Assembly: GCA_034520365.1 (NCBI GenBank)
Contig: JAXHNP010000007.1
Span: 930,001 to 994,000 of the forward strand
Direction: 5' to 3'
Source of the DNA: Desulfobacterales bacterium
Lineage (GTDB): Bacteria; Desulfobacterota; Desulfobacteria; Desulfobacterales; Desulfosalsimonadaceae
Length of the DNA stretch: 64,000 bases
In this document: piece by piece, positions 53,049 to 59,191 of the stretch
Numbering within the stretch: the stretch's first letter is position 1
Layout: every line of letters starts with the position of its first letter
Notes under the pieces: generated by a model
The model's input: the letters and a program-made list of their open reading frames with translations, nothing else
Databases searched by the model: none
What the model was told of the DNA's origin: nothing
Program-made: the position numbers and the translations under genes

Positions 53049-54332
53049 TTACTTCTTCTCATCACCGGTGGCGGCGCCGTGAAGCTTAACTTCGACTTTG
53101 TCTGTCAGGCCTCCATAGTACTCCCGCAGGATGTCGAGAACTTCTTCCCGGCCAAAGTGGTCCGGAATCGGGGTGCCTTCGGAAAGGCCCTTTCGCAGCA
53201 TGGTGCCGGAAAGGATGACCCGGTCTTCCTTGGTGTGCGGGCAGGTTTTAAGAGAGGCCATGCCGTCGCACTTATGGCAGTAAAAGGTCCAGTCAATTTT
53301 TAAGGGCTTGCAGAGCAGGGCCTTGCCGGGTTCTTCCGGGTACGGGATTTTGTCAAAAATGGTCTGTGCCTCGAACATGCCGTAGAAGTCGCCCACGCCG
53401 GCGTGGTCGCGGCCGATAATCATGTGGCTGCAGCCGTAGTTCTGGCGGAAGGTGGCATGAAGCAGGGCTTCCCGGGGACCGGCATATCGCATATCCAGCG
53501 GGTAGCCGCCCTGTACGACCTTATCTTCGACAAAGTAATTTTTAACCAGTACGTCAATGCAACGGACCCGCACATCCGCCGGAATGTCGCCGGGTTTTAA
53601 GTTGCCGACCAGGGAGTGAATAAAAACGCCGTCGCTTACCTCGATGGCAATTTTGGCCAGGTATTCGTGGGAACGGTGCATGGGGTTTCTGAGCTGCATG
53701 GCCGGAATTCTTGACCAGCCTTTGTCCTCGAAAATTTTGCGGGATTCCGAGGGGCGCAGGTAAATTCCCTTGTAAGCGGTCGGAAAATCAGCTTCGCTTA
53801 ACACCTTGACGGGCCCGGCCAGGTTGAACTGTTTCTGGTTCATTACCATCTGGACACCCGGATGTTCTTCCTTGGCAATCTTCCAGAACTCTTCCGGGGT
53901 CGGCGTGCCTTCGCCCATGAAGGTTTTTTCGCATTGGTAAATTTTGTTTTCCTCGGTCATTTCGTATTTTTCCGTGACCTTCATGGTGGCCATGATCTCA
54001 TCGCCTTCCGGATCGTATAGCGCGACCTCTTCGCCCTCGCTGATGCTGTCCGCATCTTCCTTTGTGGCTGAGAGTGTCACCGGAATGGGCCAGAAAGTGC
54101 CGTCTGCGAGCAGGTAATTGTCGCATACGCTCTTCCAGTCGGCTTTGTTCATGAAGCCGCCCAGCGGGCTGAAGCCGCCGGTGCCGATCATGATCAGATC
54201 GCCGCGTTCATTCGGGGTAATCGGGATCTGTTTAAGACCCTTGGCTTTTTTCTTCTCTTCTTCCAGTTCTGCGCCCTCGAGCAGGCAGATGGTCAGGCCT
54301 TTGCCGCCATGTGGGGGGATCAAGTTTGACAT
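53049..54332 (-). CDS. sat: Sulfate adenylyltransferase (ATP sulfurylase)
   Basis: A 427-residue enzyme, the length expected for the dissimilatory single-domain form. The nucleotide-binding HxxH motif is in [14 protein letters not shown], and the [12 protein letters not shown] segment marks the active site. A cysteine-rich stretch ([17 protein letters not shown]) suggests a structural zinc site as in Sat of other sulfate reducers. It makes APS from ATP and sulfate. AAAGGAGACGG precedes the ATG. It is convergent with the rest of the cluster and has its own promoter. Confidence 0.97.
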
Positions 54333-54475: not shown

Positions 54476-55315
54476 TTAAATATCTGAAATTTGGCCCCAT
54501 ACATCGGGTTTATCCAGATAGCGGATACTTGACCGGAAATCCGCCTTGCGGTGGGGTTCCAGGGTAATAATCGGTTTGGTTTCATTGCCGGCAGCAAAGT
54601 CAAACACGGGCTTGAAATCGATGTTTCCGGCCCCCATCGGCAGGTGGGCGTCAAAGTCGCCGTGGTTGTCATGCAAGTGGAATTGCCCGATCCATGGGGA
54701 GAGTATCTTTATCCATCGGGAAAGGGGCTCGCGGCTGAAAACAGACAGATGGCCGACATCCAGGCAGCATCCCGCATGATCCGGATCAAATTGGGATAAG
54801 AGCCGCAAAAGATCCTCAGGATATCTTTCATATACGTTTTCAAGCATCAGCCGGGCGCCGCAGCGCTTTACCGAGTCTGCCACCCATTGCCAGGTTTCAG
54901 TGCTTCTGGCATACCATACGTCCCGGCAGAAATCGTAGCGAAAGGTGTCATAGGCAGCATGGCAGACAATCGTTTTGGGTTGGAAGACGGCGGCCGCATC
55001 GATCATTTGCTGGAAGCGTCCGCAGGTGGTCTCATGAATCGCCGGATCCGGTGACCCCGGGGAAAGATCCAGGAACGGGCCGTGTATTGTCACCGAAAGC
55101 CCATGGGCGTGGAGCCTACCCGCCATTGCGGAAAAGTCCGACGGGGAAAACCGGTCAAGCGCCGCGGCATCCAGCCCGATCTCCGGATTCAAATCCAGTG
55201 CAAAGACCAGCTCCTGCCAGTCTTCGGCCGCAAGCATAACAAAGGGCAGGTTCACCTGCACCCGCCGGATGATTTCCTGCTGAGAGGGGGTATAGATCTG
55301 ATCTTTCAGGGTCAT
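54476..55315 (-). CDS. TIM-barrel protein of the sugar isomerase/AP endonuclease 2 superfamily
   Basis: A 279-residue barrel enzyme. Metal-ligand residues of the Nfo/xylose isomerase-like fold are visible: TIHGPF, IVCHAAYD, LMLENVYERYPED, CCLDVGHL, QFHLHDNHGDFDAHLPMG and TLEPH. It is the last gene of the cobT operon, 81 bases after cobT. Superfamily members include sugar-phosphate isomerases, endonuclease IV and CbiR phosphodiesterases, so the reaction cannot be fixed. Given its neighbours, a role on an alpha-ribazole or cobamide intermediate is my inference. The ribosome-binding site is weak. Confidence 0.8.
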   Translation of the reverse strand: MTLKDQIYTPSQQEIIRRVQVNLPFVMLAAEDWQELVFALDLNPEIGLDAAALDRFSPSDFSAMAGRLHAHGLSVTIHGPFLDLSPGSPDPAIHETTCGRFQQMIDAAAVFQPKTIVCHAAYDTFRYDFCRDVWYARSTETWQWVADSVKRCGARLMLENVYERYPEDLLRLLSQFDPDHAGCCLDVGHLSVFSREPLSRWIKILSPWIGQFHLHDNHGDFDAHLPMGAGNIDFKPVFDFAAGNETKPIITLEPHRKADFRSSIRYLDKPDVWGQISDI

Positions 55316-55396
55316 TGGCCTAAATCCCGCAAAAAGTTAATAAAGGCTTTATTTTTTTACCCGTATCCCCAAACTGTCAAGGAAAAACCGATTCGT

Positions 55397-56461
55397 TCAG
55401 CCGGTATGCGCGTTTTCGATGTTTACCTCGTCAAAGGTCTTGATTTCAGCCAGCACCCGGGTGGCGGCATCCAGAATTTCCATGGCAAGCGCCGCCCCCG
55501 TGCCTTCGCCCAGCCGCATGTTGAGATGGAGCAGCGGCTCTATTCCGATCCGCGCCAGCATATACTGATGGCCGATTTCCATGGACTGGTGCGCCGCAAA
55601 CAGGTAGGGCCTGACCGCGGGCGAGAGCTCGGCGGCAATCAGGGTGCCGGCGGTTGATATCAGGCCGTCGGATAGCACCGGTATCCCCCGGGCCGCCGCG
55701 CCAATGACAATACCGGCGATACCGCCAATTTCAAATCCTCCCACCTTGGCCAGCACATCAATGGGGTCATTCGGGTCCGGAACATGCTTTTTCAGGGCGG
55801 CTTCAATCACCGCCGTCTTGCGGGAAAGTCCCTGATCATCAAGCCCGGTTCCCCGGCCGGTCAGCTTTTCGGGGGAAATCCCGGAAAAGGCCGCAATAAT
55901 GGCGGAAGAGGGCGTAGTGTTGCCGATGCCCATGTCGCCGGTACCGAGCAAATCGACATCAGCGGCCGCGCATAGATCGTTTACGGTTTCAATGCCCGCT
56001 TCAATGGCGGAGACCGCCTGATCCCGCTGCATTGCCGGTTCTTTATAAAAGTTTTTGGTGCCCTTGGCGATCTTTTTATGGAATATGGGCAGATCCGGAG
56101 CAAAATCGTAGTTCACCCCAAAGTCCGCCACCCGGACCTCTGCGCCCGCATGCCTTGCCAGCACATTGATCGAGGCCCCGCCGGAGGTGAAATTATAAAC
56201 CATCTGGGCGGTTACCTCCTGGGGAAAGAGGCTCACGCCTTCCGCGACCACGCCGTGATCACCGGCGCAGGTCAGGATATATTTATGCGGCAGCCTGACA
56301 TCCAGGTCTTTTTTGATCGCCGCCAGCCGGGCTGAAGCTTCCTCGAGCATTCCCAAACTTCCGGCCGGCCGGGCCTGATTGGCCAGCCGGTCCAGGGCCT
56401 TTTCATAAACGGTTTGATCAATGGCCGGGATTTTTCGAATGGTATCTTTCAGTAATGACAT
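55397..56461 (-). CDS. cobT: Nicotinate-nucleotide-dimethylbenzimidazole phosphoribosyltransferase (CobT)
   Basis: About 354 residues, the family length. The signatures ARPAGSLG and GTGDMGIGNTTPSSAI are present, with the NVLARHAGAEV segment. The catalytic Glu lies in RLGEGTGAALAM near the C-terminus. CobT activates the lower ligand of cobamides by making its alpha-ribotide. AAAGGAGAAAC six bases before the ATG at 56461 fixes the start. The frame is open to 56590 but that part is overlapped by cbiR. In this operon it follows a CbiR homologue by 31 bases. Confidence 0.95.
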   Translation of the reverse strand: MSLLKDTIRKIPAIDQTVYEKALDRLANQARPAGSLGMLEEASARLAAIKKDLDVRLPHKYILTCAGDHGVVAEGVSLFPQEVTAQMVYNFTSGGASINVLARHAGAEVRVADFGVNYDFAPDLPIFHKKIAKGTKNFYKEPAMQRDQAVSAIEAGIETVNDLCAAADVDLLGTGDMGIGNTTPSSAIIAAFSGISPEKLTGRGTGLDDQGLSRKTAVIEAALKKHVPDPNDPIDVLAKVGGFEIGGIAGIVIGAAARGIPVLSDGLISTAGTLIAAELSPAVRPYLFAAHQSMEIGHQYMLARIGIEPLLHLNMRLGEGTGAALAMEILDAATRVLAEIKTFDEVNIENAHTG

Positions 56462-56492
56462 CTGTTTCTCCTTTAAAAAAATTTTGCGGCGG

Positions 56493-57305
56493 TCAAGCCA
56501 ATTGGGAAAGAATTTTAAGCGAGGCCTCGAGACGGTTAAATGAGAAGACTTCCAGGCATAGGGTGCCGGTAAACTGGCCCAGGATATCACTTAGGCCCTG
56601 GCGGATATCAAGCGGCATCTGATCAAGGCCCAGGTGCTCATGCGCCTTCTGAAAGCCGTATAAATGGATGATCGGAATTTTATGGGTGAAATTTTCATAA
56701 AAACGGATCCAATCCATGTCGTGGACCGCCATGTGGCCGATATCCAGGCAAACGGAAAGGTCGAATGCGGCCAAAAGATCGGAGATCCAATCAAGCGGGT
56801 AGGACAGGGTCTCGACGGATATAAGCGAGCCCTTTATATGCGACGGGCATAGCTCGGCAAGGCTCTTTTGGGTGCGGTCCCGCCAGTGATTAAAATTTTC
56901 AGCATCTTCTTCCCCATAGGGCAGGTGCAGCGTCCAGGTGGTGGGCGATAGGGGCCCGGCCAGATCTATGCAGTATTTGATCGTATCCACGGCCTGCTGC
57001 CGCTCTTTAGCCCCGGCTGCGGTGAGTGAAATGTCTAAGGGGAGATGCACATTATAGGTGATGCCGAATGATTCAGACAGCCGGACGAGCTCCCGGATTT
57101 CATCAGGCTGGGGCAGGCTTTCCGGATAGGTGCTTTCAAAAAACAGCAGTTCGATTTCATCCACAAAGGGGGCAAGCATCCGGACATTGGGCGCCATAAA
57201 ATCCGGATAGATAAACGAGGTGGTGGCCAGCCGAAAATGATAGGCCTTTTTATAAGATTGGGACAGGCTCGGCCAGGGTTTTTTCAGGCTATCTGATCCG
57301 GTCAA
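56493..57305 (-). CDS. cbiR: CbiR-like cobamide remodelling phosphodiesterase
   Basis: A 270-residue TIM-barrel protein. Residues about 26-57 (LATTSFIYPDFMAPNVRML, then FVDEIELLFFES) resemble the start of CbiR, the enzyme that hydrolyses the phosphodiester in the nucleotide loop of cobamides and so removes the lower ligand for replacement. Metal-binding residues of the superfamily follow: NVHLPLD, LHLPYGEED, SVETLSY, CLDIGHMAV and IHLYGF. Location right before cobT, which installs a new ligand, supports the call. It overlaps the upstream radical SAM gene by 17 bases. Confidence is moderate because I rely on sequence memory. Confidence 0.75.
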   Translation of the reverse strand: MTGSDSLKKPWPSLSQSYKKAYHFRLATTSFIYPDFMAPNVRMLAPFVDEIELLFFESTYPESLPQPDEIRELVRLSESFGITYNVHLPLDISLTAAGAKERQQAVDTIKYCIDLAGPLSPTTWTLHLPYGEEDAENFNHWRDRTQKSLAELCPSHIKGSLISVETLSYPLDWISDLLAAFDLSVCLDIGHMAVHDMDWIRFYENFTHKIPIIHLYGFQKAHEHLGLDQMPLDIRQGLSDILGQFTGTLCLEVFSFNRLEASLKILSQLA

Positions 57306-58206
57306 GTCGAATGATCCCTTCTTCCCGGGCGGCCTCGCGCGCTGCCTGGAATTCCGCTGAAGTTATCCGGCGGTCCAGGCCTTTTGCTTGATGAACATTG
57401 CCGCAGGGCCGATACTGGGGCATGATGTTTACATAGGTGTCTGGCGAGACATTATCATGGAGAAACCGCATGATGGGCCGGGAGCCGGCCAAATCTTGCG
57501 GCAGGACCAGGTGCCTGACCAAAAGTCCGGAGCGGGCGATACCGTGTTCATCGGTTTTAAGGTCGCCTGTCTGCCGGTGCATTTCCCTTATGGCGGCTTT
57601 GGCCGCATCCGGATAATCCGGCGCATCGCAGGCAGCCTCGGCAATGGCCGAATTCCAGAATTTGAAATCCGGCATGTAAATATCCACCACGCCCTCCAGC
57701 AGCCGCAAGGTTTCCACCCGGTCGTATCCGCCGGAGTTGTAGACAATGGGAAGGGTTAGGCCCGCGGCAATCGCTTTTTCCAGGGCGGAGAGGAATTGCG
57801 GAACCACGTGCGACGGGGTGACCAGGTTAATATTGTGGCAGCCTTCATCCTGAAGGGCGATCATGATGGCGGCCAACTCTTCGTCATTTACCCTGCTGCC
57901 CCAGCCTTCATGGCTGATGTCAAAATTCTGGCAGAAGCAGCACATCAGGTTGCAGTGGGTGAAAAATATCGTGCCCGAGCCGTTTCGCCCCACCAGGGGG
58001 GCTTCCTCGCCGAAGTGGGCGTTAAAGGAGGAGACTTGGGCTTCTTCGGGGGTTTTGCAGAGGCCGGTCTCGCCGGCGAGGCGGTTCACCCCGCATCGGC
58101 GGGGGCAGAGTTCGCAGTTTTCAAGAATCTGCCGGCTGTCCCGGATTTTTTCGGAAAGCGCGCCGGATGCGTGAGTTCGAATATAGGCGGGCTCGGTTTT
58201 TTCCAT
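57289..58206 (-). CDS. Radical SAM protein, PflX/pyruvate formate-lyase-activase-like
   Basis: A 305-residue radical SAM protein. The cluster-binding CxxxCxxC is in HCNLMCCFCQNFD. An N-terminal cysteine motif (CELCPRRCGVNRLAGETGLC, listed here as CELCPRRCG with LC at the end) precedes it. The rest follows the COG1313/PflX arrangement, with a C-terminal VNIMPQYRPCGN. It is tightly coupled to its neighbours: one base after the cNMP-binding gene and overlapping the CbiR gene by 17 bases. Its substrate is unknown. The operon suggests a role in cobamide or an adjacent radical process, which is inference. Confidence 0.85.
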   Translation of the reverse strand: MEKTEPAYIRTHASGALSEKIRDSRQILENCELCPRRCGVNRLAGETGLCKTPEEAQVSSFNAHFGEEAPLVGRNGSGTIFFTHCNLMCCFCQNFDISHEGWGSRVNDEELAAIMIALQDEGCHNINLVTPSHVVPQFLSALEKAIAAGLTLPIVYNSGGYDRVETLRLLEGVVDIYMPDFKFWNSAIAEAACDAPDYPDAAKAAIREMHRQTGDLKTDEHGIARSGLLVRHLVLPQDLAGSRPIMRFLHDNVSPDTYVNIMPQYRPCGNVHQAKGLDRRITSAEFQAAREAAREEGIIRLDRIR

Positions 58207-58207
58207 A

Positions 58208-58759
58208 TTATTCCGATGCGCCGGGCGGGCGTCCGGATTCCTGGATAAATTCCTGGATCAGATCGGCGGCCTGTCCGAAATCCACCACCGGCTGTTTCTC
58301 CAGCACCAGGTCCTCATTGGCATGCCGGAGCTTCTCCAACAGGCTTAAAACGATCAGCATCAGGAGCTTGTTGCCGGCATGCGGATGGGTTTTGAAAAAA
58401 TAGATGAGATCCTGGCGGCTGATCCGAATTACCGTGGTCTCTTTGGTGGAGGCAATATTGGCGGTGCGCTTGGAGGCCAGAAATATGGCGGCTTCCCCAA
58501 AAATTTCCCCTTCGCCGATATTGCAGATCACCACTTTCTTATCGTTTTTATCCCTTACGGAAACCTCCACTTCGCCTTTGAGGACCGCATAAATGTGGTT
58601 GCCCACATCACCCTGGTTGATGATGGTTTCGCCATCATCATAGTGGAGGATGGTTGAAATGATCAAAAGCTTTCGCAGTTCGGTCTCATGCAGCCAGTGA
58701 AAGATTTTAATGCTTTTGAGCTCCGGCAGAAATCTGTCGATTTGCGTCTCTTCCTTCAT
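58208..58759 (-). CDS. Cyclic-nucleotide-binding domain protein, 183 aa
   Basis: A single cNMP-binding domain: IINQGDVGNHIYAVLKGEVEV, then GEGEIFGEAAIFLASKRTANI, where the conserved Arg is present (KRTAN). It has no DNA-binding helix-turn-helix, so it is not a CRP-type regulator by itself. A helix of about 20 residues follows the domain. The ATG at 58759 has AGGTG upstream. It is the first gene of the cobT-cbiR operon and its stop is one base from the radical SAM start. Confidence 0.82.
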   Translation of the reverse strand: MKEETQIDRFLPELKSIKIFHWLHETELRKLLIISTILHYDDGETIINQGDVGNHIYAVLKGEVEVSVRDKNDKKVVICNIGEGEIFGEAAIFLASKRTANIASTKETTVIRISRQDLIYFFKTHPHAGNKLLMLIVLSLLEKLRHANEDLVLEKQPVVDFGQAADLIQEFIQESGRPPGASE

Positions 58760-59191
58760 GGTGGCACCTGCCTGGGGGTTAGGGGTTGGGCCAAGATTGT
58801 GCTTTTTCAACATAAAGGATCATATCGGCAGATCAATGGGCAGTCAATAGAAAGCTGTTTATTAAAGGCAGTTAGGCGGGAATAAACATTTACTGGCCTG
58901 TGGTTTTGTCCGGCAGGCGCTTGGCGTCTTCAAGATTTTTCGCATCCCGGGAGATCGCCTGCAGTCAGGATGGGCTGAGCCATTTTTGCCGTTGCGTTTT
59001 TTGGGATGCCTTGATATAGGGCTACTTGCGGTCTAACTCACCATTTTTATTAAGATTATTTTTTTTGCCGGCATGCTGCCCCATGGCATATGGCCGTTAC
59101 TGTGACCAGTTACATCATGTCGGTTTCGTCTCCACCCGGTTCATGGGAACCGATGGAATATCCATGGAAGCGGTCTGTTAAGGAGGGACGG
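58760..59191. other. Gap of about 430 bases without a supported gene
   Basis: The region is between the divergent cNMP-binding gene and the exonuclease III gene, so it should carry both promoters. I cannot identify a clear promoter, repeat or riboswitch. No cobalamin riboswitch-like element was recognised. Confidence 0.4.

Follow-up and report, generated by a model that had tools for sequence, protein, structure and literature searches.

A tightly packed gene run around CbiR and CobT in a Desulfobacterales genome is probably a composite locus

Do five closely packed genes, two of which serve cobamide metabolism, make up a single pathway? The question is raised by a locus in the window, by which we mean a stretch of 64,000 nucleotides from a Desulfobacterales bacterium of the family Desulfosalsimonadaceae (assembly GCA_034520365.1, contig JAXHNP010000007.1, forward-strand positions 930,001 to 994,000). 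All on the minus strand, the genes encode, in order, a cNMP-binding protein, a radical SAM protein, the cobamide phosphodiesterase CbiR, the lower-ligand base phosphoribosyltransferase CobT and a second TIM barrel, here called barrel2. A sequence-only reading had taken them for a remodelling operon in which the radical SAM protein or barrel2 might supply a new step in lower-ligand choice. Comparison with relatives led us to a different view: the locus is probably a composite, not a dedicated five-gene remodelling pathway. This view rests on gene neighbourhoods, mostly in draft genomes.

The gene order and all four spacings were borne out on open reading frame (ORF) coordinates. The probable first gene, that of the cNMP-binding protein (58208..58759; Pfam PF00027, cNMP_binding, 76 bits), is followed after one base (58207) by the radical SAM gene (57289..58206), whose product scores 28.2 bits on Pfam Radical_SAM (cut-off 29.5). 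The latter overlaps cbiR (56493..57305) by 17 bases (57289-57305). A gap of 31 bases (56462..56492) then leads to the ATG of cobT at 56461 (gene, 55397..56461), and 81 bases separate cobT from barrel2 (54476..55315). Left out of the initial description was the next gene on the same strand, encoding sulfate adenylyltransferase (Sat, 53049..54332; Pfam ATP-sulfurylase, 284 bits), a recurrent member of this neighbourhood in most of the family. Beyond Sat come genes that read as Qmo-like. The genome (G000) measures 4.33 Mb in 8 contigs and is 99% complete. Genes in loci fetched from other genomes were called with a simple longest-ORF script, and names given without a library scan are by reading.

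The identities of CbiR and CobT were confirmed, both proteins scoring above curated cut-offs. CbiR obtains 256.5 bits on NCBIfam NF041277 (cut-off 105) and falls in the CbiR clade in trees; CobT obtains 430.5 bits on TIGR03160 (cut-off 319.3) and 441 bits on Pfam DBI_PRT. The cbiR frame opens with TTG, and relatives in two genera (L095, L097, L109) read from such a start too. The two genes tend to occur together: across 116 genomes of the order Desulfobacterales, the pair is complete in 69, while 12 have only CbiR and 13 only CobT (odds ratio 9.7, p 8e-7). For these two genes, a cobamide-remodelling pair is a fair reading. PMC7733943 reports that CbiR releases cobinamide phosphate and alpha-ribazole from cobamides by hydrolysis of their phosphoribosyl bond, that it is promiscuous and active only without oxygen, and that 80% of cbiR homologues lie beside a cobamide gene. 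A literature search on CbiR in Desulfo- organisms returned nothing concerning this question, judged by titles; PMC10553843 deals with cobalamin auxotrophy in syntrophic sulfate reducers, its passages seen here making no mention of CbiR. The window genome carries CobS elsewhere (G000:C3). It also has a second CobT (G000:C8:134670-135671), which scores 441 bits, slightly above the CobT of the window (431).

The remaining genes were then followed through 36 genomes of the family. Counting fragmented copies, a radical SAM orthologue is present in 26 genomes, barrel2 (at least 241 bits) in 18, CbiR and CobT over their cut-offs in 21 each, and CobS in 20. The radical SAM gene is followed by cbiR in 11 genomes belonging to two genera, that of the window, g1 (G000, G135, G136, G137), and g2 (G059, G123, G125, G126, G127, G129, G130). 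It is directly followed by barrel2 in seven genomes (G105, G132, G133, G140, G141, G144, G148). In another seven (G116-G121, G138) Sat comes 300-600 bases after it, and the interval, searched for the query genes only, contains no other gene of the window set. G122 has none of CbiR, barrel2 and Sat within 1.5 kb of radical SAM; G147 has the cNMP gene and barrel2 and no radical SAM match; in G146 the contig ends in barrel2. The neighbourhood is not unique to the window genome; yet, in what was examined, it is found in only two genera of one family.

CbiR over cut-off accompanies barrel2 in 12 of its 18 genomes and is missing from six (G105, G132, G133, G140, G141, G146). G105 (99% complete) and G140 (98%) have the cNMP-radical SAM-barrel2 set, but neither yielded a CobT, a CobS or a CbiR over cut-off. 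G133 (91%) has the same set, again without CbiR, CobT or CobS, and G132 (60%), where radical SAM and barrel2 were seen, is likewise. Conversely, in G144, G147 and G148 a single contig holds CbiR, CobT and CobS, and barrel2 is on a different one. Thus, radical SAM and barrel2 occur in genomes where no lower-ligand assembly genes were found, and the cobamide genes for their part are also seen at a distance from these two.

Relatives also show how the compact look of the run may have come about. A cobalamin riboswitch (53-75 bits, gathering score 31.5) lies between CbiR and CobT in the congener G137 and in all five g2 genomes examined (G059, G123, G127, G129, G130). Where G137 has 357 bases between CbiR and CobT, the window, G136 and G135 have 31. 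No cobalamin riboswitch was found in the window at the gathering score, nor around the locus at E up to 5, and none in the loci of G136 and G135; a riboswitch in the window was accordingly rejected as a candidate. The simplest reading is that the element was lost once, in an ancestor of the window genome, G135 and G136, a loss that would leave the gene run looking like one operon.

Promoter-like sites were surveyed as well, 9 being found in the region against 4.0 expected from shuffles (standard deviation 1.8), so that few are above chance; terminator-like sites (9 against 7.6, standard deviation 2.8) are not above chance. One minus-strand site, TTGACT-17-TATGAT (58819..58847, 10 of 12 matches), precedes the cNMP gene, and its TTGACT box is also found upstream of that gene in two congeners. 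The ORF of the cNMP gene reaches 58813, but ATG 58759 appears the more likely start, because relatives start there and the promoter-like site ends at 58819. Another minus-strand site, TTGACA-18-AAAAAT (55351..55380, 10 of 12), lies in the CobT-barrel2 gap. Because its TTGACA box is kept in three genomes (window, G136, G135), barrel2 may have its own promoter. As for the cNMP-binding protein, the suggested tie of the unit to cell energy state is a reading of the domain name; the Pfam scan gave no family except PF00027 and no DNA-binding domain.

If radical SAM and barrel2 served lower-ligand exchange, one might look for them to keep company with CbiR or CobT across the order. In the 116 genomes they do not. 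Barrel2 shows no association with CbiR (27 genomes with both, odds ratio 0.85, p 0.83) or with CobT (30, 1.38, p 0.52), nor does radical SAM with CbiR (61, 1.80, p 0.19) or with CobT (61, 1.58, p 0.37). In a quality subset of 81 genomes, one fewer than the automatic count of 82, barrel2 gives p 0.31 with CbiR and 0.42 with CobT, the CbiR-CobT control remaining at 8e-7. The search for shared neighbourhoods was negative as well, the one with cobT being seen in only two genera, and the idea of radical SAM and barrel2 as new lower-ligand steps is not supported by these comparisons.

Presence was scored at about 300 bits for radical SAM and about 140 bits for barrel2, partial CobT matches in G034 and G068 were counted as present, and no correction was made for kinship. 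Context loci (20 for radical SAM, 20 for CbiR, 40 for barrel2 in the order and 57 distinct ones for barrel2 in the phylum) were hand-picked from listings and are thus non-random; the stretches span about 4 to 17 kb, and gene presence in them was counted by tblastn.

Outside the family the contexts of the three proteins are separate. At least one of CbiB, CobS, CobU and CobT accompanies CbiR in 15 of 20 loci from other families, radical SAM in none. At the 40 barrel2 loci from other families of the order, CbiR, CobT, CobS, CobU, CobO, CbiB and Sat were all absent; a radical SAM paralogue appears at one locus and a cNMP relative at one. The 20 radical SAM loci from other families contain, within the stretches fetched, no CbiR, CobT or Sat. 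Fur-FeoA is present at 12 of them and FeoB at three. A recurrent run in the order (L113-L132) comprises an FmdB-type zinc ribbon, a Fur-FeoA fusion, sometimes FeoB, radical SAM, an ApaH-like phosphatase, an SH3 protein and a PfkB kinase, and suggests an iron-linked role for the radical SAM family. A lower-ligand enzyme was rejected as the identity of the radical SAM protein, the same 20 loci lacking also CobS, CobU, CobO and CbiB and having Fur-FeoA, the zinc ribbon, the phosphatase and the SH3 protein as neighbours.

In the protein itself, the cluster motif Cys85-x3-Cys89-x2-Cys92 (CxxxCxxC) is invariant in 13 of 13 aligned sequences, as are four N-terminal cysteines (31, 34, 38, 50). The protein matches no named NCBIfam family at its cut-off, and a sequence comparison with solved structures gave no significant hit. 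The name PflX comes from the sequence-only reading; a literature search for COG1313 or PflX with radical SAM returned no paper.

These data bear directly on the five-gene operon, in which radical SAM, barrel2 or both would add a lower-ligand step, be it synthesis, trimming or recycling of the ligand or of its ribosyl phosphate, and the cNMP protein would sense nucleotide state. Tight packing with a 17-base overlap speaks for it, as do the radical SAM-CbiR order kept in g1 and g2 and the eight of nine invariant metal-site-type residues that barrel2 and CbiR have in common. Against these stand the genomes with radical SAM and barrel2 in which no CbiR, CobT or CobS was found, the lack of co-occurrence with CbiR or CobT, the separate contexts outside the family, and the fact that the unit is interrupted by a promoter-like site and, in relatives, by a riboswitch. 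We consider such an operon very improbable.

The recurrence of Sat raises another possibility, namely that cNMP, radical SAM, barrel2 and Sat form a functional unit linked with dissimilatory sulfate reduction or with sulfate activation. In 14 of the 18 family genomes that have barrel2, Sat comes after it, and in two more (G059, G129) a divergent Sat lies between CobT and barrel2, just before the latter. Of the others, G133 has no Sat after barrel2 and in G135 the contig ends. In a third genus, g3, six loci (L098, L100-L103, L106) have after barrel2 a divergent Sat only 39-42% identical to that of the window, while a seventh (L112) has one that is 79% identical; the type of Sat thus changed while the neighbourhood stayed. 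Moreover, five of the 40 barrel2 loci of the order (L228, L233, L238, L248, L250) lie near genes of DsrM/K/O type, named by reading. However, besides the G133 case, Sat is absent from all 20 radical SAM and all 40 barrel2 loci outside the family, and barrel2 is met in many other settings across a large part of the phylum. A sulfate unit therefore seems to us decidedly unlikely.

What, then, is barrel2? On the CbiR model NF041277 it scores 71.5 bits, under the cut-off of 105, and the 18 family orthologues score 64 to 87 bits. Both barrels of the window match Pfam AP_endonuc_2 (46 and 107 bits). Quick trees place barrel2 in a Desulfobacterota clade of its own, apart from CbiR, with a separating branch of 2.2 and a Shimodaira-Hasegawa approximate likelihood ratio (SH-aLRT) of 100. 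A CbiR duplicate was rejected on account of the score and the separate clade. Nine His, Asp and Glu residues (H78, H119, E159, D186, H189, H213, D222, H224, E253) are invariant in 91 of 91 aligned rows, one place being counted twice (L093 and L099). Eight of them coincide with identical residues when E. coli Nfo is aligned; E253 has no aligned Glu, one lying three columns away. These positions are metal ligands in endonuclease IV. Two CbiR sequences in alignment A3 have all columns but D222 in common with barrel2, the CbiR of the window carrying the superfamily H, H, E, D, H, H, H, E. In hydroxypyruvate isomerase several of the nine residues are missing. Barrel2 does not cluster with CbiR in quick trees, and clustering with sugar isomerases, the outcome that had been set against it, was not shown either: its residues are like those of endonuclease IV and not of hydroxypyruvate isomerase. 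Barrel2 matches no named isomerase or epimerase model, its relatives' matches being weak and far under cut-off; the fold is shared with such enzymes (Z about 22-24). It gives no match to an NCBIfam deoxyribonuclease IV model at E 0.001. An AlphaFold2 model has a predicted local distance difference test score (pLDDT) of 91.6. Barrel2 is probably a metal-dependent small-molecule phosphodiesterase.

At E 1e-15 or better, matches to barrel2 turn up in 169 of the 389 order genomes and in 260 of the 395 phylum genomes, figures that take in weaker barrels from other clades, and the contexts across the phylum are many and varied. Further afield, two haloarchaeal relatives (L274 5920-6729, L275 5896-6678) end carbon-phosphorus (C-P) lyase operons (phnGHIJ and on). 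No phnP-named gene is seen in the stretches shown, and these relatives may fill a PhnP-type phosphodiesterase role; literature on C-P lyase with PhnP gave no direct support for such a role of the haloarchaeal barrel. One alphaproteobacterial relative has as its neighbours a HAD hydrolase and a glycerophosphodiester phosphodiesterase.

Several observations weigh against a composite locus. The merged order is kept in four of four g1 genomes as far as the contigs reach (G137 ends after CobT, G135 within radical SAM), radical SAM-CbiR is kept in seven of nine g2 genomes, and the merged order may have been selected. Barrel2 and radical SAM co-occur weakly in the 116 genomes (34 with both, odds ratio 3.1, p 0.03, kinship uncorrected; p 0.07 in the quality subset), and in g3 their spacing is tight, about 30 bases in L101 and L103. 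The weak co-occurrence and this spacing are the best sign that the two belong together, and they may share a function. Barrel2 relatives are, in addition, found near cob genes. In Vescimonas fastidiosa a barrel (L273 4938-6784) overlaps cobT by 4 bases, with cobU, cobS and a transporter after it. All five genomes looked at from family f128 have barrel2 immediately ahead of, and co-directional with, cobO-cobU-X-cobT-cobS (L328 6296-7357, L311, L340, L345, L346); in L328, X encodes some 160 amino acids and matches no Pfam family. Finally, on pTT27 the gene of TTHB071, the nearest solved structure, is separated by other genes and about 5 kb from a cobalamin cluster.

The Vescimonas and f128 cases, together with the nine invariant residues, are what would recommend barrel2 alone as a second, non-CbiR cobamide or alpha-ribazole phosphodiesterase, repeatedly drawn to cobT loci. 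The Vescimonas protein, an AP_endonuc_2 barrel, scores 94 bits to barrel2, 20 bits to the CbiR of the window and 36.6 bits on the CbiR model, by which it is not CbiR; it is a candidate cobamide-linked barrel in Clostridia. However, it forms a long branch in the quick tree and its position is unsure. In all five f128 genomes barrel2 is separated from cobO by a cobalamin riboswitch (100-119 bits), which puts barrel2 outside the cobO regulon. That riboswitch weakened the f128 case, and attraction of barrel2 to cob operons as a rule was rejected. Barrel2 is, moreover, present where no CobS or CobT was found, cob genes occur at none of the 40 loci of the order, and among the phylum loci (58 rows, 57 distinct) cobT occurs only in f128, with CbiB about 5 kb off in one more (L355). 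By our rough arithmetic, chance would place a gene 6 kb or less from cobT in about 0.4% of 3 Mb genomes, and one cobT-adjoining family among some tens would be not far from chance. A second cobamide phosphodiesterase is hence unlikely, though three separate cases, one of them an overlapping pair, keep us from rating its chances lower. In its fullest form, the proposal would make barrel2 the founder of a family of small-molecule phosphodiesterases, endonuclease IV-type and Desulfobacterota-wide, whose origin is separate from that of CbiR and whose substrates include a ribosyl phosphodiester or alpha-ribazole-type part of cobamides. It would have come to lie at cobT loci on three or more occasions (in the window, in f128 and, as a remote relative, in Vescimonas); this we hold to be a speculative idea with the odds well against it.

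Altogether, the data point to a composite locus, which could be described as follows. The recurrent frame in the family is (cNMP)-radical SAM ... Sat. In some genera it also holds the phylum-wide endonuclease IV-like barrel, and in two genera the cobamide pair of CbiR and a usually riboswitch-controlled CobT is found there as well. In the window genome and two congeners, disappearance of the riboswitch and closure of the CbiR-CobT gap to 31 bases would have produced the compact appearance. Most likely CbiR and CobT work as known. Judging by homology, CbiR would cut the cobamide to cobinamide phosphate and alpha-ribazole, CobT would activate a replacement base, and CobS, encoded elsewhere, would rejoin the parts. 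Radical SAM and barrel2 would most likely act outside cobamide metabolism, the former in an iron-linked housekeeping role and the latter as a metal-dependent phosphodiesterase. A tightly packed run with overlapping genes can thus be a stack, here of two cobamide genes among three that occur independently, and the locus warns against reading function from spacing alone. The part most deserving of biochemistry is barrel2, as a well-conserved Desulfobacterota-wide family with endonuclease IV-like invariant residues.

Among known proteins, the nearest solved structure to barrel2 is TTHB071 (3ayt/3ayv; VIA Z 27.9, 2.2 A over 240, 27% identity), followed by MJ1311 (3wqo, titled D-tagatose 3-epimerase-like; Z 26.4, 2.6 A over 253, 22% identity), for which a literature search returned no paper; barrel2 differs from both in forming its own clade in quick trees. 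Identity to endonuclease IV (E. coli Nfo) is 20%, a likeness that implies no DNA role. As to the cobamide pair, the sibling genera g94 (G118) and g95 (G122) have it in another setting (L084, L090), riboswitch-CobS-CbiR-CobU-CobT, the riboswitch standing before CobS and being cut by the contig end in G118. CbiR and CobT lie there within about 1 kb of each other, as in the window, but this CbiR is only 31% identical to that of the window, the stretches are without radical SAM, barrel2 and Sat, and in G118 radical SAM is next to Sat on another contig. The CbiR of the window resembles that of Akkermansia muciniphila (Amuc_1679), as described in PMC7733943, in belonging to the same NCBIfam equivalog, in its AP_endonuc_2 barrel and in having a cobamide gene, here cobT, beside it.

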